A DNA stretch of 64,000 nt from Limisalsivibrio acetivorans (lineage in GTDB: Bacteria; Chrysiogenota; Deferribacteres; Deferribacterales; Geovibrionaceae): positions 1,313,407 to 1,377,406 of the forward strand of contig NZ_ATWF01000001.1 in NCBI RefSeq assembly GCF_000421105.1, written 5' to 3'. A program made the translations under genes and the position numbers. This document shows, in pieces, positions 48,597 through 61,630 of this stretch; positions within the stretch are counted from its first letter, which is position 1, and every line of letters begins with the position of its first letter. The notes beneath the pieces were generated by a model that made no database searches, was not told the origin of the DNA, and saw only the letters and a list, made by a program, of their open reading frames with translations.

Positions 48597-50965
48597 TGAA
48601 AATACTGCCTGTGCGGCAGTGAACAAATGCTAGATACACATTATGATGGTGTATTTTTTCTAAGCTGCCTGTGCGGCAGTGAACACAAAGACATATTTAG
48701 TCGCAAGCTCGATTTCTTTCTAAGCTGCCTGTGCGGCAGTGAACGAGGATAAACACCTTCATATACTTTTCGATATTTTCTAAGCTACCTGTGCGGCAGT
48801 GAACCGACCGTCAAAGTCGAAATAACAGATGATACATTTCTAAGCTACCTGTGCGGCAGTGAACATGATGTCATACGGCACTGGGCGTACGGGGTGTTTT
48901 CTAAGCTACCTGTGCGGCAGTGAACTAATATCTATGGGCGGAGTAGTAGCATTGTCTTTTCTAAGCTACCTGTGCGGCAGTGAACCGTTTGCCGTTTTTG
49001 CCTTGATAAATATGTGGTTTCTAAGCTACCTGTGCGGCAGTGAACCGAGATCAGCACACCAAAGATCAGCGTGCCAGTTTCTAAGCTACCTGTGCGGCAG
49101 TGAACTCAGGTGCTACAAAATCGGTCGGTGCTGGTAATTTCTAAGCTACCTGTGCGGCAGTGAACCAAATTCCAAGAATTTGTCATCAAACATATCCTTT
49201 CTAAGCTACCTGTGCGGCAGTGAACGAAAAGCGAGGGTGGGAAGAAAGCTAATCTCATTTCTAAGCTACCTGTGCGGCAGTGAACTGTTATTATACCCAG
49301 AACGTTGTCCTTCCCGTTTTCTAAGCTACCTGTGCGGCAGTGAACCTTCAAAAAACTTTGCTAGGCTTGTTGACATTTTTCTAAGCTACCTGTGCGGCAG
49401 TGAACGAGAAAGCAAGCCGAACCCGCTTGCTCAAGCGTTTCTAAGCTACCTGTGCGGCAGTGAACTCATTATAAACTCACCGGCTACACAAGTATCTTTT
49501 CTAAGCTACCTGTGCGGCAGTGAACGCTATATTGTAAAAGCTATGGTTTCATATACATTTCTAAGCTACCTGTGCGGCAGTGAACTTACGTTGTAACTAT
49601 TAATAACACCTATCAGATTTCTAAGCTACCTGTGCGGCAGTGAACTGTTTTAGAAAGCGGTCAAATCTTTTGCGAAGTTTCTAAGCTACCTGTGCGGCAG
49701 TGAACTGCGGATAGGTTCGTTGAAGTAAGTTCCGGTGTTTCTAAGCTACCTGTGCGGCAGTGAACCGTATCCCTTGTTACAACCCTTTGCTATTAAGTTT
49801 CTAAGCTACCTGTGCGGCAGTGAACAGGACCGGAGCTGGAAGGATAGGACCGGAGCTTTTCTAAGCTACCTGTGCGGCAGTGAACGCCCCTGCGGGGCGG
49901 GGCGGGCGCAAAACAAATTTCTAAGCTACCTGTGCGGCAGTGAACAGCTCCGGATTTTGTTGCGAGTGCGACGATATTTTCTAAGCTACCTGTGCGGCAG
50001 TGAACAAGCCTCTTCAATCTCCCAGTAAGCCCCTTTCTTTCTAAGCTACCTGTGCGGCAGTGAACTCGCTGTAATCACTGAAAACAACACCACAGCATTT
50101 CTAAGCTACCTGTGCGGCAGTGAACTATTAGAGATCGCATCTTTTTTACGGTGGAATTTTCTAAGCTACCTGTGCGGCAGTGAACGACATCCCGATCAAG
50201 CTTTTCCCTGTGCCGGTTTTCTAAGCTACCTGTGCGGCAGTGAACGGCACGCCGATCTCAAAGGCGCTGATCTAAGATTTCTAAGCTACCTGTGCGGCAG
50301 TGAACACTAATAGTGAAGAACGCTTTATTGAATATGATTTCTAAGCTACCTGTGCGGCAGTGAACCCCTTCAGCTTTAAGCCGCCCGGCGGTCTTGCTTT
50401 CTAAGCTACCTGTGCGGCAGTGAACTTGAAAAAACTCTTGAAGGGGAGCTTGATAACTTTCTAAGCTACCTGTGCGGCAGTGAACCTCGTCTAATGTCCT
50501 TGCCTGGCTGTCAAAGATTTCTAAGCTACCTGTGCGGCAGTGAACAGAACACGACCACCAGGCAACAATCTTCCAGTTTTCTAAGCTACCTGTGCGGCAG
50601 TGAACTTTTGTCCTGATATACTTCTTCCCACCCTCAATTTCTAAGCTACCTGTGCGGCAGTGAACTGGTATCACAAGATATGGGCGCAGTGCGCTTCTTT
50701 CTAAGCTACCTGTGCGGCAGTGAACTAGCACTCGTACAGCAAAAGCATCTGCCTGCCTTTCTAAGCTACCTGTGCGGCAGTGAACCTAGGCATCATCCAC
50801 CCCCGGAAGATTCATCTTTTCTAAGCTACCTGTGCGGCAGTGAACCGTACCATGAAGGGCCGCCGTCCTTCTGCGCATTTCTAAGCTACCTGTGCGGCAG
50901 TGAACTGCGTAAGCTGTACGAGGGCTGATGCGGTCCATTTCTAAGCTACCTGTGCGGCAGTGAAC
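48597..50965 (-). CRISPR. Type I-F CRISPR array 1 (40 repeats, 39 spacers)
   Basis: Repeats of 28 bp alternate with 32-bp spacers; the fifth spacer is 33 bp. Read on the minus strand the repeat starts GTTCACTGCCGCACAGG and ends AGCTTAGAAA, the standard I-F form with a Cas6f hairpin. The leader is therefore on the high-coordinate side, and the oldest end is at 48597, where the last repeat is degenerate (its first 8 plus-strand bases are TGAAAATA, where the others have TTTCTAAG). The three oldest repeats have CTGCC on the plus strand like array 2; the other 37 have CTACC. That turns one stem pair into a G-U wobble. Four spacers overlap or match spacers of array 2. Confidence 0.98.
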
Positions 50966-51094
50966 AGTTCCCAAAATCGGGCAAACCTATACTACCTATA
51001 CCATATCTAATATTTAGTTGCAAAAACCCTTTTTTTTTCAGGGTTCCCTAAATCACTGATAGGGAACCCTTTAAAAAATGCTCTGAAAAAAGGG
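50966..51094 (-). promoter_or_regulatory. Leader of CRISPR array 1
   Basis: This AT-rich stretch lies between the newest repeat and the end of cas6f. It contains AGGGTTCCCTA and TAGGGAACCCT, a perfect 11-bp inverted repeat (about 51039-51070). That is nested in an outer pair, AACCCTTTTTT... and ...AAAAAAGGGTT, which also frames the array 2 leader. A short GGTAG-containing motif about 20-35 bp from the first repeat is shared with the other leader as well. Confidence 0.7.
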
Positions 51095-51661
51095 TTAGAA
51101 AAGGGGTACTGTGCCCCCTTTACTTAAGCCATACTTATTAAAGCCCCCCTCGCCGGGTTCATTAACACGCTTCTGCTGGATAAAGAGGCGAAAACTGTGC
51201 TCTGTGCTCCCGCTTTTTACATTGATAAAGGGCTTTCTTGTCCTTTTCTCTGCTGAATCGGGGTATTTTTCTCTAGCTTCTTCTTCGGTATAGCCGTGGC
51301 GTTTCATCTGTCTGCGGCGGACTCGCTCCATACTGCTCTTAACTTGAACCCTGCGCACAGCAACATGCTCCGCACCGGAGGGGACAGATTTCACCATCCC
51401 TGCCTGAACGTAGTCACGCATGCCACCCAGCCAGCCTGTCTCCATGAACCTTTTAAGGCTCATCTCTTCCCCGTGGACACGAATGACATCGCCAAGGGGT
51501 GAGCCTGTGTCCTTCACACCTTCCTTAGGAAAGCTGACGGCAAGCTCGGGGCTGTCCTCCTGAACCAAGGCCTTATGAAACCTTGAGAAAACCTTGTTAA
51601 GAACCACCGGAACAGTTACCTCCGAAGGAGGCACCGCCTTTATATCAACATAGTGGGTCAT
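51095..51661 (-). CDS. cas6f: Cas6f (Csy4), crRNA-processing endonuclease
   Basis: A 188-residue endoribonuclease that cuts the pre-crRNA at the base of each repeat hairpin and stays bound to it. The catalytic His is in VFSRFHKALV (about residue 29). The arginine-rich helix MERVRRRQMKRHGYTEEEAR grips the hairpin, and the C-terminus ends in the family signature GGFNKYGLSKGGTVPLF. Length is normal for Csy4. AGGAG precedes the ATG; csy3 ends 3 bp upstream. It is the last cas gene of the effector operon. Confidence 0.95.
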   Translation of the reverse strand: MTHYVDIKAVPPSEVTVPVVLNKVFSRFHKALVQEDSPELAVSFPKEGVKDTGSPLGDVIRVHGEEMSLKRFMETGWLGGMRDYVQAGMVKSVPSGAEHVAVRRVQVKSSMERVRRRQMKRHGYTEEEAREKYPDSAEKRTRKPFINVKSGSTEHSFRLFIQQKRVNEPGEGGFNKYGLSKGGTVPLF

Positions 51662-52720: not shown

Positions 52721-53695
52721 TTATTTATTTTTTTGTTTACAAAGATATGTCCCTATTTCGGGATCGGATTCGTAGTACCACATGAGATCCTCGGCATTCC
52801 TGAGCTTTAAGGGATTGAGCCATTCGCCCATGGAATAGGCCGCCTCCACAAACCGGAAGGGAACCTCATTATCACGGGCATTCTTGACCACACCCGGCTC
52901 ATAGAGCTCGGATATGGGTAGGAAGCCCACCGGGATAGGAACAAGCCAGCCGGGGCGTTCTCTGCGGAATCCCCACGTAACATTGAAATCCTTATCCTCG
53001 TTCTCTGCTTTCTTATCCTCATATTCCTCCGGCGACATTTCCGGCTCAACCTTCACTGCACAGAGATCCAGAAGTGCATCAAGGGCTGTTGAATCAGGGT
53101 TCTCAACACGCATCTCCTTGAGCCTTTCGCTGAGAATATCTCCCCTTTCTACAAGGACAAAGCCAGGGATAAGCCTGCGTTTCAGCCTAGCAATCTGCTC
53201 TTTTCTCTCATCATCAATATCAGAAAGAGGGCTGGCATAGGGTTTAGGGTCCTCTTTTCTCCGTGGCAGAACGGAACCTCCGGCTATTCGCATAGACTGA
53301 GAAGCTTCCAGAACCTTCTCTGCCAGTTCCTTAAGTCCTGCTTCGGTAGTATCAGCAGTCCAAACGCCTATAACGAGTGTTACATCAAGGTGAATACGCC
53401 CCTCCTCCAGAGTACTGGAGGGGTCTCCATTACTATCGTAGGGGTTACGGGTTATCTTAAGCTGATGCGGAACATAGGGAACAGGCTGATAAACCTGCGC
53501 CTCATAATCGTGGCAGACTATACCCACACCATCGAAGGAGGTTTCGGCACCGCCGAGCTTCCTATGCAGTGCATGGACAAAGCCAAGAAAGTTGCTCACA
53601 GCAGGGAATCCCCATGAGTAGGGACCTGAGATCATATTCGCATTCTGTATGCGAACATGGGGCAGAGTTACGAGTGTATTGGGCTTTTTACTCAT
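52721..53695 (-). CDS. csy2: Cas5f (Csy2), effector subunit
   Basis: A 324-residue RAMP protein that caps the 5' handle of the crRNA together with Csy1. The opening LVTLPHVRIQNANMISGPYS, then GFPAVSNFLGFVHALHRKLG, is typical. I chose the ATG at 53695, with GGGGG upstream, over the in-frame TTG at 53701. It overlaps the csy1 stop by 8 bases, so the two are translationally coupled. Confidence 0.94.
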   Translation of the reverse strand: MSKKPNTLVTLPHVRIQNANMISGPYSWGFPAVSNFLGFVHALHRKLGGAETSFDGVGIVCHDYEAQVYQPVPYVPHQLKITRNPYDSNGDPSSTLEEGRIHLDVTLVIGVWTADTTEAGLKELAEKVLEASQSMRIAGGSVLPRRKEDPKPYASPLSDIDDERKEQIARLKRRLIPGFVLVERGDILSERLKEMRVENPDSTALDALLDLCAVKVEPEMSPEEYEDKKAENEDKDFNVTWGFRRERPGWLVPIPVGFLPISELYEPGVVKNARDNEVPFRFVEAAYSMGEWLNPLKLRNAEDLMWYYESDPEIGTYLCKQKNK

Positions 53696-55052
53696 TATCA
53701 AACCCCCTAGCCAGATCCTTCAGTACTTCGGCAGCCTCTTTGCGAACCTGAACGATGTCTTCATCTCCCAGAGGTTTCTCATACTTAGCCTTCTTAGCCT
53801 CTTTATCGAAGGTTCTTGTGAACCACTTCACATAGGCCGTAGCCACATCCTCTACCCAGTCGATATTCTGATATTCCTCATCCAGGTTACCCACTTCCAT
53901 GCCGGAATCGAGCCACAACCTGAAAGACTGGTTCAATCGGCAGTTTTCATCATTGCTCCAACCAGGCTCGAGTTGTCGCATCTCAAAGGTGAAAAGGGTC
54001 AGTTCGTCCAGTAGAGCCTCTCTATATTTGCTGCTCATTTCTCTAATCTCGAGGTTTGTACGATCTTCATACCTTTTCAATATGCGCAGGTATCCCTTAA
54101 ACTGGCTCCAGACATCTTTCCTTTTGGAAAAAACCTTCTCAATGGGGTCTTCGATATACAGAATCGGCTTTGTATCTTTTGATACCCACTTTGGCGGGAG
54201 TGAGGGCAACAGATACCCTTGCCCACCACGCTGGCTGTTAAGCTGACTGGCGTTCTGCGGCTTTGAGCCACCAACCCCCTGCAAAGCAAGATCAGGGTAG
54301 TAACGGTATCCGCAACTGTGTGGTTTATTTTTAGATTTCAGATCCCTAATCTCCTTAATTTCTTTGGAGAACCTGATATCACTCATACATCTGTGCACAT
54401 AATGAACAACTACAGAAGGATACAGGGGCGTTAGGAGATGGTATGAATAACCCACAGGGAAGTACAGCTGTTTCAGCAGAGTGTCCGCATAGGGTTCACC
54501 TATGTTGAGAGCTTGATAGAATGCTTTATAAAGCTCCTCTGACTTTTCTGGATCATCTGATAATGCATTAAGCAATTCAGGATCTTTTCGCATAAAAAGC
54601 TCATATATTGGAACTCCATTAACTGTGGATCTATAAAGTGGAAATGTTCCAAGATAAGCAGCGTTTCCCATACAATCCAAAGGTTTTTCATTCAGTGAAT
54701 GTGTCCCTACAAGCTCGTCTGAGCTATATAGAGGGTTCTGTAAAAACACACCTGTGGCTTTAGCATCTTTGTGAGTGTATTTAGGCGCATGAGTAACAAG
54801 TCTTAAGGATGAAAGTCTATCCGGCTCAACTCCTTTAGCCGCATTTTCAAGCCAGTTTTCGAGGGTAAATTTCTCATTGATCTTATCGATCTTCTCCAGG
54901 ATCTTCACCCTCTTCTCAAAATCATCTTCACTTTCTAGCTTTTTTTTCTCAGGTTTTAGTTCTTTTTCCTTCTTTTCTAGAAGAAAGGCCTCTATGACAC
55001 CACTAACGGTCTCATCTTTGGGCAAACTATCCTTATCCGGGTCGTCTCGCAT
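53688..55052 (-). CDS. csy1: Cas8f (Csy1), large effector subunit
   Basis: A 454-residue protein that reads the CC PAM and binds the 5' handle of the crRNA in the I-F effector. Recognisable Csy1 parts are THAPKYTHKDAKATGVFLQN, LGGSKPQNASQLNSQRGGQG (as VGGSKPQNAS...) and LPPKWVSKDTKPIL. It is the first gene of the effector operon. AAGGAGG lies 6 bp before the ATG. Its promoter region (55053-55145) holds a site matched by the mini-CRISPR at 55174, so its expression may be set by the Csy complex itself. Confidence 0.95.
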   Translation of the reverse strand: MRDDPDKDSLPKDETVSGVIEAFLLEKKEKELKPEKKKLESEDDFEKRVKILEKIDKINEKFTLENWLENAAKGVEPDRLSSLRLVTHAPKYTHKDAKATGVFLQNPLYSSDELVGTHSLNEKPLDCMGNAAYLGTFPLYRSTVNGVPIYELFMRKDPELLNALSDDPEKSEELYKAFYQALNIGEPYADTLLKQLYFPVGYSYHLLTPLYPSVVVHYVHRCMSDIRFSKEIKEIRDLKSKNKPHSCGYRYYPDLALQGVGGSKPQNASQLNSQRGGQGYLLPSLPPKWVSKDTKPILYIEDPIEKVFSKRKDVWSQFKGYLRILKRYEDRTNLEIREMSSKYREALLDELTLFTFEMRQLEPGWSNDENCRLNQSFRLWLDSGMEVGNLDEEYQNIDWVEDVATAYVKWFTRTFDKEAKKAKYEKPLGDEDIVQVRKEAAEVLKDLARGFDNE

Positions 55053-55111
55053 AAGCGCCTCCTTATTTTAATTCACAACAAGACTAACACATAACCCTAT
55101 ACGTGTACATG

Positions 55112-55133
55112 CCTATATATTTGTGTTTTAGAA
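55112..55133 (+). promoter_or_regulatory. Predicted target of the mini-crRNA in the csy1 promoter
   Basis: A CC (55112-55113), the I-F PAM, is followed by TATATATTTGTGTTTTAGAA (55114-55133). The pseudo-spacer of the mini-array is TATATCTTTGTATTTTATAT. The two agree at 16 of 20 positions; mismatches are at 6, 12, 18 and 20. On the minus strand the first six target bases read TATATA and are a candidate -10 for csy1 (a TTCAAA lies 19 bp upstream). A Csy complex bound here would block the promoter. The guide is too short and mismatched for a full target, which fits binding without DNA destruction. Confidence 0.8.
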
Positions 55134-55144
55134 CCTTCTTTGAA

Positions 55145-55172
55145 TTGATCTTGATAAGCTATTGTGTATAAT
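55145..55172 (+). promoter_or_regulatory. Promoter of the mini-CRISPR RNA
   Basis: TTGATC (55145-55150), 16 bp, then a perfect TATAAT (55167-55172). Transcription would start near 55178-55180, just before the hairpin of the first degenerate repeat. It faces away from the csy1 promoter. Confidence 0.75.
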
Positions 55173-55173
55173 A

Positions 55174-55240
55174 GATCACTGTCGAGAAGACAGCTTAGAA
55201 TTATATCTTTGTATTTTATATATCCACTGCCGCAAGGCAG
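55174..55240 (+). ncRNA. Mini-CRISPR giving a Cas-regulating guide RNA (CreR-like)
   Basis: Pseudo-repeat 1 (55174-55201) matches the local repeat at 21 of 28 positions. Its stem is CTGTC-GAGAA-GACAG, where the normal one is CTGCC/GGCAG, so one pair has changed on both sides. Its last 8 bases, CTTAGAAT, would be the 5' handle (normal CTTAGAAA). A 20-base pseudo-spacer (55202-55221) follows in place of 32. Pseudo-repeat 2 (55222-55240) has the intact stem CTGCC-GCAA-GGCAG. The unit runs opposite to the arrays and the cas genes. Guides of this kind that repress cas promoters (CreR) or toxin genes (CreA) are known from other CRISPR types; no toxin gene is seen here. Confidence 0.82.
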
Positions 55241-55249
55241 TTCCAGCTT

Positions 55250-58200
55250 TCAGTCATCCCATATACCTAAACGCTCGTTGAAGTGCAGAGCCCTAGCGCT
55301 CTCCCTTACTCCGAAGGTTCCATATCGAAGTGAGGCTTCCTCTAACGAAAGGTTTTTCTCATCAGCAATACGCCCTAAGAGATCGGTGTAATCCAGGTTT
55401 ATAAATGTACTGCTTCGCTCAGGTGTCTCCAGATCCACACGATTAAAGGAGCTGTCTCTCTTTGCGGTGCTATCCGAATCTGCCTGACTCATTTCATCCA
55501 GCGAATAGGGAGTCACACAAAAGCATGTTTCCCCGTCCTCATCAATCTGAAGGAAATAGCCAGTCTCAGGACTACCCTTTCTGAAGCGTGTATTACTCTG
55601 TATCACACCTGTGAGATAAGCCTTAGTAGCCCAAAAACTCTTAGCCGGACGTACCTTGCTAGACTCGATTAAATGACTGCGCAGAACATAATGTTCGAAA
55701 TCGCTCAGGTTATCACATCTGTCCTCCACATCCCGCTCCAATAGCCGGGGAATCGAGCTGATCACCTCATACTGCTCTGGCTCTAAAGCCTCGCTGAGGT
55801 CATGGCTGTTTATCTTAAAACCATACCTTTCAAACCCGGGCATGCTAAACTTTCCACGGATATTTTTCCTAAGTATCCCCAGGTTCGGTGTTTCGCACTT
55901 CACCTCCCTGTGCCGCATGATCCTTCCGGCAAGCTGAATAATCGAACGCATGCTCGATGGCTCCACTATTCCCCAGTCGTAATCGTGGTCCCTGCCTACC
56001 TCCGCCACTGGAGAGGCAAAGACTATAAATATATGATCTATGCCATCCTTCTTGAGTGCCTCCGCCAAAAACTCGTTACTCTCGGGACTGAACTCTTTTT
56101 TTCTGTTGAGTATTTCGTCCAATACAAACTCTATATTCGAGCGCATGATCATCGGATAACGGGAGTGATAACAGCAGAAATGGAAGCATACACCCTCCGG
56201 AGGCTCGAGACTTGCAAAAGAGAGGACAGTTTTAACAAGGTTACGGATATTCGCCATCCGCACCAAGCCGAAGCTCATACGCTTCCCCTCTGCTGTCACT
56301 GTATGATGCTCATTATGGAACTTTACCGACTGCTCCCCCACAAGCTCGGCAAGTCTCGTCTCCGCCTCACCGGAGTTATCTTTATTGTCACCCGGCTCAT
56401 AAGGAATCAGTACACCACGCCTGCGTACAACCTCATTCTTGAGCCTTTCAATTCTTCGCTTTGCAAAATCGCCATGCTTTTCAATGAACGATTTCACACC
56501 ACTGGGCCGGTCCGAGGTACAGCCATACTCATCAAACCACGCACAGACTGGAGCACAACACCTCCCCCGGTTTCTATTGAACTCTATACGGCCTCTGGAA
56601 TATGCCCTATACAGCGCTTCGGCGATAGATGGTGTTATAGTCGCAGAGGAAAGCAAAACACGACTCCCAGCCAGACCAGCGAAATATACCAGCCTCGAAA
56701 GCGCATAAAGATCACCCACATCGAAATCGTCCGGCTCATCCAAAACAAGGTCACTGGTCATAAGGCGAAGCATGGGGGCAATCTGCTGGCCACCCCTTAT
56801 CCCTTCGGATGCCGGGATCAGGTGGTCTATGGTACATGTAAGAACAGGTGAGCTGAGGAGCTTTACTGCCCCTCTCCTGCCCGAAAGCCACTCAGCTAAA
56901 ACTCCGGTGTCCAATGCGCCTTCATAATGGACATAACTGTTTTCCGGCATCAGGTCCTCTGCGGATTCACTCCCCTTAAAGTTCTCGTTCTCCTCATATA
57001 AATCACGATACGCCTGACCGCCGACGAGTATCCCGAGGTCCGTTTCATCAAGATTCATCATCTCTCTATAGGCCTGCCCGGTCTGGAGTGTCAGAACACG
57101 AAGCCCCAGCGCTATGGTGAACCTCGCTCCACGCTCCTGATCCGCAAGACCATACATTATCCGACCATTCGCAATGGTTTTGCCGCAACCAGTAGAGGCC
57201 ATATTTATACCGAAGAATCCCCTCTCTCTCGAATCTTCACGCACCGACTCGGCCAATGCAAAAGCATCGTTTTGCCACATAAACCTTTTTTCTCTGGTGT
57301 TTTTACGAAAGAGCTTGTGACGGGCTATACGTGAAAAGGCGTTATCAACTCCCATGAGCTCGAAAAGGATACGGTGGCACATCTTTTCAACGCCGATTAT
57401 ATGCTCGTCCAGCCGCTGGGGGGGATCGCCTGTTTTGTTTGCAAGCACTTTATCCGATTTATCAAATGTTTCTCGTTTGTGCGGTTCACCTATGCCGGAA
57501 TAGATGTGATCCGCCATCATGAGTGTCAGCCTGCAATAGGCGGATATATAATGATTATTCTCCGGAGGGCATTTCTCAACCTGCTCTAAGTCTATAATTC
57601 GTAAAACCGCTCTGGCGGCCTTTGCGGCTCTCTTTTGCCACTCCTCGCTCTCTGTGGGAAGTTTTTGTAATAATTCCAATGCCTTCCGGCGCTTTTGATC
57701 GTTGTCATCCCGGAAATGATTCCACCGCACATTCGCATGGTTAAAGGGGTAATTAATATAGCCATCAATATTTCCCCTCTCCTCCGGGTCTGGTGTGGGA
57801 AGTCTGTGATGGGAAAGAACAAGCCATCCGACGAAACGGGCTATGGGCGGTAGATTTTTCAGCGGTGCATGTTCTTTTTCCCACAGCTTTTCCAGCGCTG
57901 CACTCCTTATTGATTCGCCATCCCATTTCCCTGATTCAAGCTCATGAAGCCATTCTCCATCCGTCTTGCCCGAGGCCATCGCCTCCAATATCAATACGGA
58001 AATCCATTCGTGGCGAATAATGTTTACGGTATTCCCCTTTTGAGCCAAACATTTCTGAAAGTCATTATTCGCTTTTCCAAAATCATGAAACAATGCACCA
58101 AGAGCACTCAAAACACGTATCTGCTCCCCCGTTGCCCAATCATTCTCGTCCGCACTGCGCAAAATATCCTTCTCCGTCGAATTCGTGGGTACGGTTCCGG

Positions 58201-58453
58201 TGCTTGTGAACCTACTTATATCACCGACAAACCACAGAATCTCACTCCGATTCCGACCCTTAAGCCAATGGCAGGCAACGGAGGTGTTTCGTCTCGCACT
58301 CCTCCTGAGCATCTTATAAAGCGTATCAAGCCCCTGTTTCGTTATCTCCGTCTGCCAAACACGCTCACCCTTCCGCTCGGCAAACTGGTCCACAACTCGA
58401 CGGGTCTCTTTAAGGGCATTCTTCGAGCACTGGGAAACTATAAGAACATTCAT
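55250..58453 (-). CDS. cas3: Cas2-Cas3 fusion, helicase-nuclease
   Basis: A 1067-residue I-F-type fusion. Residues 1-95 are Cas2 (MNVLIVSQCSKNALKETRRV), which works with Cas1 in spacer uptake. The HD nuclease follows (LGALFHDFGKANNDFQKC). The helicase has Walker A in MASTGCGKTIANGRIMYGLA, the DEAD-box equivalent LVLDEPDDFD, SSATITPSIAEA, and motif VI IIQLAGRIMRHREV. It degrades DNA marked by the Csy complex. The real start is 58453, not the upstream extension: it overlaps the cas1 stop as ATGA. The hairpin of pseudo-repeat 2 lies 10 bp after the stop. Confidence 0.95.
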   Translation of the reverse strand: MNVLIVSQCSKNALKETRRVVDQFAERKGERVWQTEITKQGLDTLYKMLRRSARRNTSVACHWLKGRNRSEILWFVGDISRFTSTGTVPTNSTEKDILRSADENDWATGEQIRVLSALGALFHDFGKANNDFQKCLAQKGNTVNIIRHEWISVLILEAMASGKTDGEWLHELESGKWDGESIRSAALEKLWEKEHAPLKNLPPIARFVGWLVLSHHRLPTPDPEERGNIDGYINYPFNHANVRWNHFRDDNDQKRRKALELLQKLPTESEEWQKRAAKAARAVLRIIDLEQVEKCPPENNHYISAYCRLTLMMADHIYSGIGEPHKRETFDKSDKVLANKTGDPPQRLDEHIIGVEKMCHRILFELMGVDNAFSRIARHKLFRKNTREKRFMWQNDAFALAESVREDSRERGFFGINMASTGCGKTIANGRIMYGLADQERGARFTIALGLRVLTLQTGQAYREMMNLDETDLGILVGGQAYRDLYEENENFKGSESAEDLMPENSYVHYEGALDTGVLAEWLSGRRGAVKLLSSPVLTCTIDHLIPASEGIRGGQQIAPMLRLMTSDLVLDEPDDFDVGDLYALSRLVYFAGLAGSRVLLSSATITPSIAEALYRAYSRGRIEFNRNRGRCCAPVCAWFDEYGCTSDRPSGVKSFIEKHGDFAKRRIERLKNEVVRRRGVLIPYEPGDNKDNSGEAETRLAELVGEQSVKFHNEHHTVTAEGKRMSFGLVRMANIRNLVKTVLSFASLEPPEGVCFHFCCYHSRYPMIMRSNIEFVLDEILNRKKEFSPESNEFLAEALKKDGIDHIFIVFASPVAEVGRDHDYDWGIVEPSSMRSIIQLAGRIMRHREVKCETPNLGILRKNIRGKFSMPGFERYGFKINSHDLSEALEPEQYEVISSIPRLLERDVEDRCDNLSDFEHYVLRSHLIESSKVRPAKSFWATKAYLTGVIQSNTRFRKGSPETGYFLQIDEDGETCFCVTPYSLDEMSQADSDSTAKRDSSFNRVDLETPERSSTFINLDYTDLLGRIADEKNLSLEEASLRYGTFGVRESARALHFNERLGIWDD

Positions 58454-59433
58454 TCGTGCTCCTTCTGCATCTCTTGACAGGTCTCTTTCACTGTATCGAT
58501 CATGACGTCCATTGCGCCGTACCTTAGAAAGTTGCTTATACATCTGTCACGAAATTCGCGCATATCCTCACCGTTTGAGGCAGAGACAAAGGCCTGCGGA
58601 AGTATTAGAGCATCCTTAATAATGTCTGCAATATCAAAGACAAGTCCGCCCCGCCTAGTTTTACCATGCAGAACAGCAAGGCCGTGGGGTAGACCGAGCA
58701 CCCATGCGGATGCGGCGCCCAGGCCATAGGCGAGATAGTTTCCCGCATCCAGCATCTTGTTTGCCATATCCCGGGAATCACCACGTTCAGACCGCTTAAA
58801 TTCTGCTATACTGCAGGATCTTGACGCATTACCGTATAGCTTCTTTGTCAGCTCCGCCTCATGCATAAGAAGATCATTTGTGCTCTCAGCCTTTTCTATC
58901 TTTCCAGAGAACCTATCCAGCGCATTATTCAGACCGGTTTCAGCTGGTTGAAAGTTCTGTTCAGTTAATATATTATGGAACCACCCCTTCGATATGTTCT
59001 CCAAACGTTTTTTCTGAAACAGCTTCGCAGCTTTCAACCGTTTCTCTTCATCAAACCAAAAAGAGACCCAAGACTGGAGATAATTAGTAGGCCGGTATTC
59101 ACTCTGCGGGGTTACGTAAAGCATCTCTGTTTCCCTGCCATCCCATTCCGTTCCACCGAAAAACGGGGTTCCGCCACCACCGCAAAAGCCGAGAAGTACG
59201 CCCGCTTTAGCCAGATACCTTATCGCCGCCTGCGTGACAGATGTCCCAGGGCCAAGCATAATTACGGTTGTGTTCGCAATGGGGATGTTGTAATAATCGC
59301 TCCTTTTGCCACGCTCAGCCACATACTCAACACGGCCACCCTTAACAAGGATTCTGGTATGCTCAAGATAGTATATGTTTGCCCGCTTCGAGAGCAGGAT
59401 TGTCTTCATGTCCGAGGGGTTCAAATCTTCCAT
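58450..59433 (-). CDS. cas1: Cas1 integrase, type I-F
   Basis: A 327-residue integrase that inserts new spacers with the Cas2 part of Cas2-3. It begins MEDLNPSDMKTILLSKRANI and shows GRVEYVAERGKRSDYYNIPI, the Glu/His active-site region (LLMHEAELTKKLYGNASRSC, then YLAYGLGAASAWVLGLPHGL) and HGKTRRGGLVFDIADIIKDA. The ATG at 59433 has GGAGG at 5 bp; the TTG at 59445 has nothing. It is the first cas gene, with array 2 upstream. Confidence 0.95.
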   Translation of the reverse strand: MEDLNPSDMKTILLSKRANIYYLEHTRILVKGGRVEYVAERGKRSDYYNIPIANTTVIMLGPGTSVTQAAIRYLAKAGVLLGFCGGGGTPFFGGTEWDGRETEMLYVTPQSEYRPTNYLQSWVSFWFDEEKRLKAAKLFQKKRLENISKGWFHNILTEQNFQPAETGLNNALDRFSGKIEKAESTNDLLMHEAELTKKLYGNASRSCSIAEFKRSERGDSRDMANKMLDAGNYLAYGLGAASAWVLGLPHGLAVLHGKTRRGGLVFDIADIIKDALILPQAFVSASNGEDMREFRDRCISNFLRYGAMDVMIDTVKETCQEMQKEHE

Positions 59434-59649: not shown

Positions 59650-61479
59650 TGAAAATACTGCCTGTGCGGCAGTGAACCTTTGAGGTAAGCAAGTCCAGCT
59701 GCGCCATCCTTTCTAAGCTGCCTGTGCGGCAGTGAACTGCAAGGGCGGAACTAGCCCGCACCGGAGACTGTTTCTAAGCTGCCTGTGCGGCAGTGAACCC
59801 CTGTATGTAAGACGGGGTTGTGATGGAATTTTTCTAAGCTGCCTGTGCGGCAGTGAACCATATTGATTCCCGCATGATGTCAGCCAAATATTTCTAAGCT
59901 GCCTGTGCGGCAGTGAACTAGCCTCCTCCTCTGCTCGGTCCGACGTATCCTTTCTAAGCTGCCTGTGCGGCAGTGAACCAAAATCGGTCGGTGCAGGAAG
60001 TGACTGTTCATTTCTAAGCTGCCTGTGCGGCAGTGAACGTATTATGTAGTCCTCTTGGTTCGTCCTCGGGTTTCTAAGCTGCCTGTGCGGCAGTGAACCC
60101 AGAGCTTCCCCAGCAGGCTTAATTATGTTATTTCTAAGCTGCCTGTGCGGCAGTGAACACGGGAAAAACGTCTGGTAATGTAATATCTATTTTCTAAGCT
60201 GCCTGTGCGGCAGTGAACCTCTCATATGGTTTAAACACAGATAAGCGGATTTTCTAAGCTGCCTGTGCGGCAGTGAACTGCGACAAAAAAAACGGAGGAA
60301 ACATCATGACTTTCTAAGCTGCCTGTGCGGCAGTGAACGCAGGACTTCAAGAGATGATCCGCAGGAGAGCTTTCTAAGCTGCCTGTGCGGCAGTGAACTC
60401 TTCAAGTGTCGTGTGCAGTATCTTTTGATATTTCTAAGCTGCCTGTGCGGCAGTGAACAGCCGGAAATAACCGAGGCTCTTGAGTGTGCATTTCTAAGCT
60501 GCCTGTGCGGCAGTGAACGCATCCTTACGTGTGAGAAAGCGATTTTTACTTTTCTAAGCTGCCTGTGCGGCAGTGAACGGATATAAAGGTTGTCTTTTGC
60601 GACACAAAATTTTCTAAGCTGCCTGTGCGGCAGTGAACCAAAGGTTGATCTCAGGCATGCTAATCTCATATTTCTAAGCTGCCTGTGCGGCAGTGAACAA
60701 TACACAAGAGGAGAAAACCCCGGCAATAAGTTTCTAAGCTGCCTGTGCGGCAGTGAACGAAGCCGTATAGTTTTGCGATTACGTGCTTCGTTTCTAAGCT
60801 GCCTGTGCGGCAGTGAACACACTGAACTCGGTTATAGTGCTGAAGAAGTAATTTCTAAGCTGCCTGTGCGGCAGTGAACTACTATCCGCTTCGTGATAAT
60901 CTATATCGCCGTTTCTAAGCTGCCTGTGCGGCAGTGAACGAGGTCGGCACCGCTTAGGTTAGCGCCTTCAATTTCTAAGCTGCCTGTGCGGCAGTGAACA
61001 AAGGCGCTAATTTCTGGTGCGCTAATATCAATTTCTAAGCTGCCTGTGCGGCAGTGAACAGAGGCGTTGATCTCAGACATGCTAATTTAAATTTCTAAGC
61101 TGCCTGTGCGGCAGTGAACGACATACCGATTAAGCTCTTCCCCGTGCCAGTTTTCTAAGCTGCCTGTGCGGCAGTGAACGACAGAAATTTCAATTTGAGC
61201 AATTTTTTTTATTTCTAAGCTGCCTGTGCGGCAGTGAACATGCGGTCCAGGTTATACACCCCACGCCCAACTTTCTAAGCTGCCTGTGCGGCAGTGAACA
61301 GTCTCTTTAAGAGTTGTGATGCCTGCACAGCTTTCTAAGCTGCCTGTGCGGCAGTGAACCCGGCGGTCTTGCGGTGGCGTTTCCCGCCATTTTTCTAAGC
61401 TGCCTGTGCGGCAGTGAACGATACGGAAAGTTCATTACGATATCTCGTAGCTTTCTAAGCTGCCTGTGCGGCAGTGAAC
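59650..61479 (-). CRISPR. Type I-F CRISPR array 2 (31 repeats, 30 spacers)
   Basis: Repeats of 28 bp alternate with 32-bp spacers; the second and twentieth are 33 bp. All repeats have CTGCC on the plus strand, giving a fully paired Cas6f hairpin. The oldest end is at 59650; its repeat is degenerate in exactly the same way as that of array 1, and about 95 bp of flank (from 59557) match the flank of array 1 apart from its IS30 insertion. The arrays therefore descend from one. The leader is on the high-coordinate side. Several spacers come from genes coding for pentapeptide repeats. Confidence 0.98.
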
Positions 61480-61630
61480 CGTTCATGAATACTCATAGCT
61501 ACCTGTGAATATTACCATAGTATAAATAAAAGAGCAAAAACCCTTTTTTCAAGAGACTCCGTAAGTAACTGATAAACAGCGCTTGAAAAAATAATTAAAA
61601 AAAAGGGTTAAAGGCAAAAGCATTCTTTCT
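61480..61630 (-). promoter_or_regulatory. Leader of CRISPR array 2
   Basis: AT-rich. It shares the outer inverted repeat AAAAACCCTTTTTTCA... and ...AAAAAAGGGTTA with the array 1 leader, though the inner part differs. At 61495-61505, AGCTACCTGTG repeats 11 bases of the array 1 form of the repeat and may be a leader-anchoring motif for Cas1 or a relic of it. Confidence 0.65.

Follow-up and report, generated by a model that had tools for sequence, protein, structure and literature searches.

The 197-bp gap between cas3f and csy1 in the type I-F1 CRISPR-Cas locus of Limisalsivibrio acetivorans (55053-55249 of the window, i.e. the whole stretch of 64,000 nucleotides that was analysed) holds a two-repeat mini-CRISPR whose guide matches a PAM-flanked site upstream of csy1. 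Judging from the sequence and from analogy with characterised systems, this element, named here creR, is very likely a CreR-type autorepressor of csy1-csy2-csy3-cas6f, repression being its predicted activity. The kind of regulator is already known, and the element in the window is a new, well-supported example of it. It would provide a clear I-F1 case of an immune system measuring its own effector via a guide RNA.

A mini-CRISPR in the cas3f-csy1 gap and its matching site

On its minus strand, the window carries a complete type I-F1 locus consisting of cas1f, cas3f (cas2-3), csy1, csy2, csy3 and cas6f, with I-F repeat arrays on either side of the cas genes; this gene and repeat content makes it a member of type I-F1. 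All cas gene calls scored above the curated NCBIfam cut-offs. The cas3f-csy1 gap is the sole large one in the locus. The features considered below are the following:

51095..51661, minus strand: cas6f (csy4), TIGR02563
51665..52702, minus strand: csy3 (cas7f), TIGR02566; also matches solved Csy3 chains
52721..53701, minus strand: csy2 (cas5f), TIGR02565
53688..55052, minus strand: csy1 (cas8f), TIGR02564, 268 bits against a cut-off of 169
55080..55108, minus strand: alternative csy1 core promoter, -35 TGTACA, 17 nt, -10 TAGTCT with a preceding TG; suggested by comparison, weak (7/12 consensus)
55112..55113, plus strand: CC PAM, read from the sequence
55114..55133, plus strand: target site (protospacer) TATATATTTGTGTTTTAGAA in the predicted csy1 promoter region, identified by the guide match and by covarying sites in relatives
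55145..55172, plus strand: predicted creR promoter, TTGATC-16 nt-TATAAT, 10/12 consensus matches
55174..55201, plus strand: psi-repeat 1 of creR, GATCACTGTCGAGAAGACAGCTTAGAAT, a degenerate I-F repeat with hairpin CTGTC/GACAG and handle CTTAGAAT
55202..55221, plus strand: pseudo-spacer (guide) TATATCTTTGTATTTTATAT, 20 nt compared with the usual 32, read directly from the sequence
55222..55244, plus strand: psi-repeat 2, ATCCACTGCCGCAAGGCAGTTCC, hairpin ACTGCC-GCAA-GGCAGT, the expected Cas6f processing and binding site
55250..58543, minus strand: cas3f (cas2-3), upstream of the gap, TIGR02562, 1010 bits

The mini-CRISPR spans 55174-55244 on the plus strand, antisense to csy1, and its two degenerate repeats, inside the cas locus, are related to the repeat of the local arrays. 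Psi-repeat 1 is identical to the array repeat GTTCACTGCCGCACAGGCAGCTTAGAAA at 21 of 28 bases, and at seven of the eight handle bases; it is the only standalone repeat-like unit of its orientation within the window. On folding, both psi-repeats form a Cas6f-type hairpin, of -6.5 kcal/mol for the first and -9.9 kcal/mol (z -3.2) for the second. The predicted creR promoter, the only promoter-like site in the gap, ends one base 5' of psi-repeat 1, and is weak by itself because 0.9 such sites per region are expected by chance. Within creR itself, the handle places AT rather than CC in front of the guide, and thus the creR locus should not be self-targeted. As for the flanking arrays (48597-50966 and 59650-61480), a single base distinguishes their repeats, GGTAG versus GGCAG; within the array at 48597-50966 the form switches after the first units. 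Both arrays terminate with an identical degenerate repeat and a near-identical flank (TATTTTCATTATCAAGATTTGTTTTTAAGGG).

The preliminary description had matched the 20-nt pseudo-spacer to 55114-55133 except at positions 6, 12, 18 and 20, directly behind a CC. Both statements hold to the base: the mismatches fall at exactly these four positions, and CC occupies 55112-55113. Guide positions 1-17 minus 6 and 12, i.e. the read positions (see below), pair with the site in 15 of 15 cases. No dinucleotide shuffle of the 197-bp gap, out of 40,000, reached 15/15, or even 14/15, beside CC, and 3 of 40,000 shuffled guides reached 15/15 beside CC in the gap. The 18-base pattern of PAM and site with the two silent bases masked (CCTATATNTTTGTNTTTT) has a single match with zero mismatches in the 2,967,889-base genome, the next-best CC-flanked places genome-wide having at least 2 mismatches. 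The match is not due to chance. The first gene downstream of the site is csy1, with the Shine-Dalgarno (SD) sequence AAGGAGG; its start codon and the PAM are 61 bases apart, and because of this distance and of the placement seen in relatives, we assign the site to the csy1 promoter. As far as match and PAM go, the guide thus shows, as for CreR, partial complementarity to a cas-promoter site beside a PAM.

Guide-site pairs in I-F1 relatives

Six genomes of the order have csy1. A Csy1 query of genome contigs gave no matches, and the better conserved Csy3 alignment was used instead; Csy3 homologues added 80 I-F1 loci, mostly from Proteobacteria, with some from Chlorobium and others, for a total of 86. 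In each locus, csy1 was located by profile and the 700 nt upstream were searched on both strands for I-F repeat-like units; the guide behind each unit was read, and the best CC-flanked site was then sought. A mini-CRISPR with a significant CC-flanked site near csy1 is present in 32 of the 86 loci. It is antisense to csy1 in all 32, with the site on the same strand in 31. Guides score 11-15 of 15 on their own locus and mostly 7-9 when tried on other loci. Dropping the PAM requirement leaves 30 of 31 loci with a best site directly behind CC.

The occurrence of the element follows the length of the cas3-csy1 gap. Among the 78 loci with a readable upstream gene, the gap measures at least 120 bp in 49, of which 31 contain the element, whereas all 29 loci with a shorter gap lack it, which argues that the mini-CRISPR goes with a separate csy1 promoter; in loci with a gap below 120 bp, csy1 probably lacks its own promoter. 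Three of the five family relatives with I-F (L019-L021), in which csy1 lies ~50 bp or less from cas3, lack the element, which is therefore dispensable. Elsewhere in these three genomes, the search for a mini-CRISPR returned nothing beyond degenerate ends of arrays and weak look-alikes attributable to chance. The guide between pseudo-repeats varies from 14 to 33 nt in length (24 and 26 being commonest), and pairing always ends near 17. A rule by which spacer length would equal 32 minus multiples of 6 was rejected, 24 nt being the most frequent length (8/31).

The preliminary description claimed that every sixth guide base is unread, such that mismatches at 6, 12 and 18 are silent. The 31 non-redundant loci bear this out: mismatch rates are 74% at position 6, 77% at 12 and 74% at 18, close to the neutral 75%. 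They are 0-23% at positions 1-5, 7-11 and 13-17, and 58-81% beyond position 18. Since unconstrained bases are expected to mismatch at 75%, the complex does not read positions 6, 12 and 18, and pairing extends to about position 17. This profile does not originate from masking positions 6, 12 and 18: sites picked unmasked and without the PAM were identical in 30 of the 31 loci. It agrees with the flipping-out of every sixth base in type I complexes (PMC5965380), and an I-F3 example involves position 12 (PMC12774636).

Guides of different loci are unrelated, with a median of 5 of 17 bases identical; a guide compared with its own site gives a median of 15 of 17 in the 31 non-redundant loci. Pairs of loci with similar guides differ at 65 read guide positions, of which 52 show the corresponding change in the site, and at 12 silent ones, none of which does; these counts carry no formal probability, as the pairs overlap. 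Between the window and the family relative G020 (L018), for instance, the guides differ at positions 5, 10, 11, 16 and 17, with a corresponding change in the site in each of the five cases. Covariation outside 6, 12 and 18 had been proposed earlier as a check, with free divergence of guide and site as the outcome that would speak against a functional pair; the opposite is found across the 31 loci. These natural guide-target pairs amount to an in vivo read-out of the bases checked by Csy binding without cutting. All positions up to 17 except 6 and 12 are read, which is useful for the design of silencing guides and for examining how cas expression is raised by anti-CRISPRs. Together with the promoter placement, the distinction between read and unread positions is the most useful addition of the comparative set.

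Predicted autorepression of csy1 and competing readings

A sigma-70 scan recognised no csy1-strand promoter by consensus in the gap. An alignment of 29 loci anchored on the PAM shows enrichment of a TTGAC-like hexamer immediately past it on the csy1 side. In 18 of these loci, a -35/-10 pair with at least 8 of 12 consensus matches begins 2-5 bases past the PAM; positions that do not overlap this stretch give such pairs in 0-4 loci. At the same PAM offset, the two family relatives L018 and L017 have TTGACT-17-TATTAT and a perfect TATAAT, respectively. By this sequence comparison, the data favour a target site that abuts the csy1 -35 rather than covering the -10. The earlier proposal that the site covers a TATATA -10 of csy1 finds no support, as the -35 of relatives lies 2-5 bases past the PAM and TATATA is a weak consensus reading. 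Note that the candidates in the window are weak in both places, TATATA within the site and TGTACA-17-TAGTCT beyond the PAM; under either placement, a bound complex is expected to collide with RNA polymerase. The site also lies between the divergent csy1 and predicted creR promoters (55112-55172), ~12 bp from the creR -35, and a bound complex might affect creR transcription as well.

By analogy with known systems, we infer the transcription and processing of creR, the binding of its RNA, repression without cleavage and the feedback dynamics as follows. The element would be a mini-CRISPR derived from the repeats of its own locus. Cas6f would cut its transcript into a crRNA-like RNA composed of the handle CUUAGAAU, the 20-nt guide and a 3' hairpin, which would load into Csy1-Csy2-Csy3-Cas6f to form a shortened Csy complex. 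The loaded complex would be guided to 55112-55133 in the predicted csy1 promoter region, where pairing would stop at ~17-19 bp, such that the complex binds without triggering Cas3 (Cas2-3) and blocks RNA polymerase sterically. Expression of csy1-csy2-csy3-cas6f would then be lowered when spare complex is present, and repression would be relieved by loss of the complex, by competition from ordinary crRNAs or by anti-CRISPRs.

The alternative closest to this scheme is CreTA, in which the guide acts as an antitoxin repressing not csy1 but a small RNA toxin, creT, encoded between the site and csy1. The slot and the guide logic are identical, in that a creA-like mini-CRISPR between cas3 and csy1 has a target flanked by CC, and an I-F version is proven in Acinetobacter (PMC10097628). 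Moreover, the site lies 159-269 nt before csy1 in ~20 of 29 relatives, with a strongly structured intervening stretch, and about a dozen of these ~20 long-leader relatives, counted by eye, hold an SD and a mini-ORF of ~10 codons in which AGA/AGG, TTA or TCA codons occur in tandem, resembling creT. In the window, however, only 61 nt separate the PAM from the csy1 ATG, the sole SD-led start is that of csy1 itself, and 55053-55112 contains no SD-led mini-ORF with tandem rare codons; L017, L035, L039, L048, L057 and L073 share this short, toxin-less arrangement. There is thus no toxin gene between the site and the cas gene, as for CreR, although cas regulation itself is a prediction. Given these 61 nt without a mini-ORF, csy1 is the most likely target and the element is best grouped with CreR, which makes a toxin guard very unlikely at this locus.

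Candidate creT mini-ORFs between site and csy1 occur in L033, L045, L046, L050, L064, L069, L078, L080, L083, L084, L101 and others, with putative peptides such as MFGTHQVRRG, MSDPHMTRRV, MIGYRPVRRV and VFGRHLALLG and with highly structured leaders. Such candidate genes are present in many proteobacterial I-F1 loci and use at least three codon kinds. L018, with 212 nt from site to csy1, has a possible ORF of ~56 codons with an SD instead of a mini-ORF. We tentatively suggest, with somewhat less than even confidence, that an ancient I-F1 slot switches between a CreTA toxin guard and plain csy1 autorepression, that the window and L017 represent the toxin-less state, and that selection keeps the guide-site pair at read positions only.

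Autorepression of csy1 also has to be weighed against a main target elsewhere, either the divergent creR promoter or a distant gene, with csy1 being secondary. The position of the site between divergent promoters, close to the predicted creR -35, would fit this reading, which is nevertheless scarcely probable: the genome holds no second full match, and the conserved element next to the PAM of relatives lies on the csy1 (or creT) side. That creR is instead a functionless relic, i.e. a decayed array end whose match is left from a self-derived spacer, would account for the degenerate repeats, and a guide could indeed be copied from a promoter. Covariation contradicts this: read positions are kept, silent positions are saturated and changes are compensated. 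Both hairpins and the handle are retained, and an even loss of match is what a dead relic would be expected to display, so that we regard a relic as highly improbable. Finally, a chance match, suggested by a guide almost entirely A/T in an AT-rich gap and by the three shuffled guides that match as well, is refuted by the gap shuffles, the uniqueness in the genome and the 31 further loci alike.

Comparison with known systems

CreR denotes cas-regulating RNAs (Liu et al, 2023, Cell Host Microbe, as summarised in PMC13131331 and PMC12737573), for which autorepression of cas genes has, according to the summary in PMC13131331, been demonstrated experimentally in types I-B, I-E and V-A. The element of the window resembles them in being a mini-CRISPR beside cas genes with partial complementarity to a cas promoter and no toxin gene, and in its expected autorepression, to be released by crRNA competition or anti-CRISPRs. 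It differs in belonging to type I-F1 and in being predicted, whereas the I-B, I-E and V-A cases are experimental (PMC13131331).

The I-F CreA of Acinetobacter sp. WCHA45 has a 20-nt guide in the cas3-csy1 gap and a CC PAM, with positions 6, 11 and 18 unpaired; Csy, directed to the site, represses transcription, and disruption of the pair at position 12 has no consequence (PMC10097628). Like creR, it is divergent from the controlled genes and has two degenerate repeats, a guide of 20 nt and a CC PAM. In contrast, its target drives creT within a gap of ~400 bp, while the window has no creT and csy1 comes next. In 2023, Shmakov and colleagues reportedly described, in NAR, I-F1 standalone repeats and mini-arrays whose spacers have partial complementarity to cas8 promoters, and are said to have tested a type I-F1 mini-array as a regulatory guide.

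Two more distant systems share parts of this logic. Racr are solitary repeat units in phages (PMC10651486), repeat mimics acting on I-F Cas6f and Cas7f, as the repeats of creR are predicted to do. They are viral and inhibitory and lack a cas-promoter guide, whereas the unit of the window has two repeats in a host cas locus, on a 2.38-Mb contig rather than on a phage or plasmid. A search for the guide pattern in IMG/VR viral contigs gave three AT-rich matches, none with a repeat hairpin and hence attributable to chance. The long-form tracrRNA of Cas9 (Workman et al, 2021, cited in PMC10651486) uses short pairing to bring a CRISPR effector to the promoter that drives its own cas operon, but it is a Class 2 natural single guide and not a mini-CRISPR.
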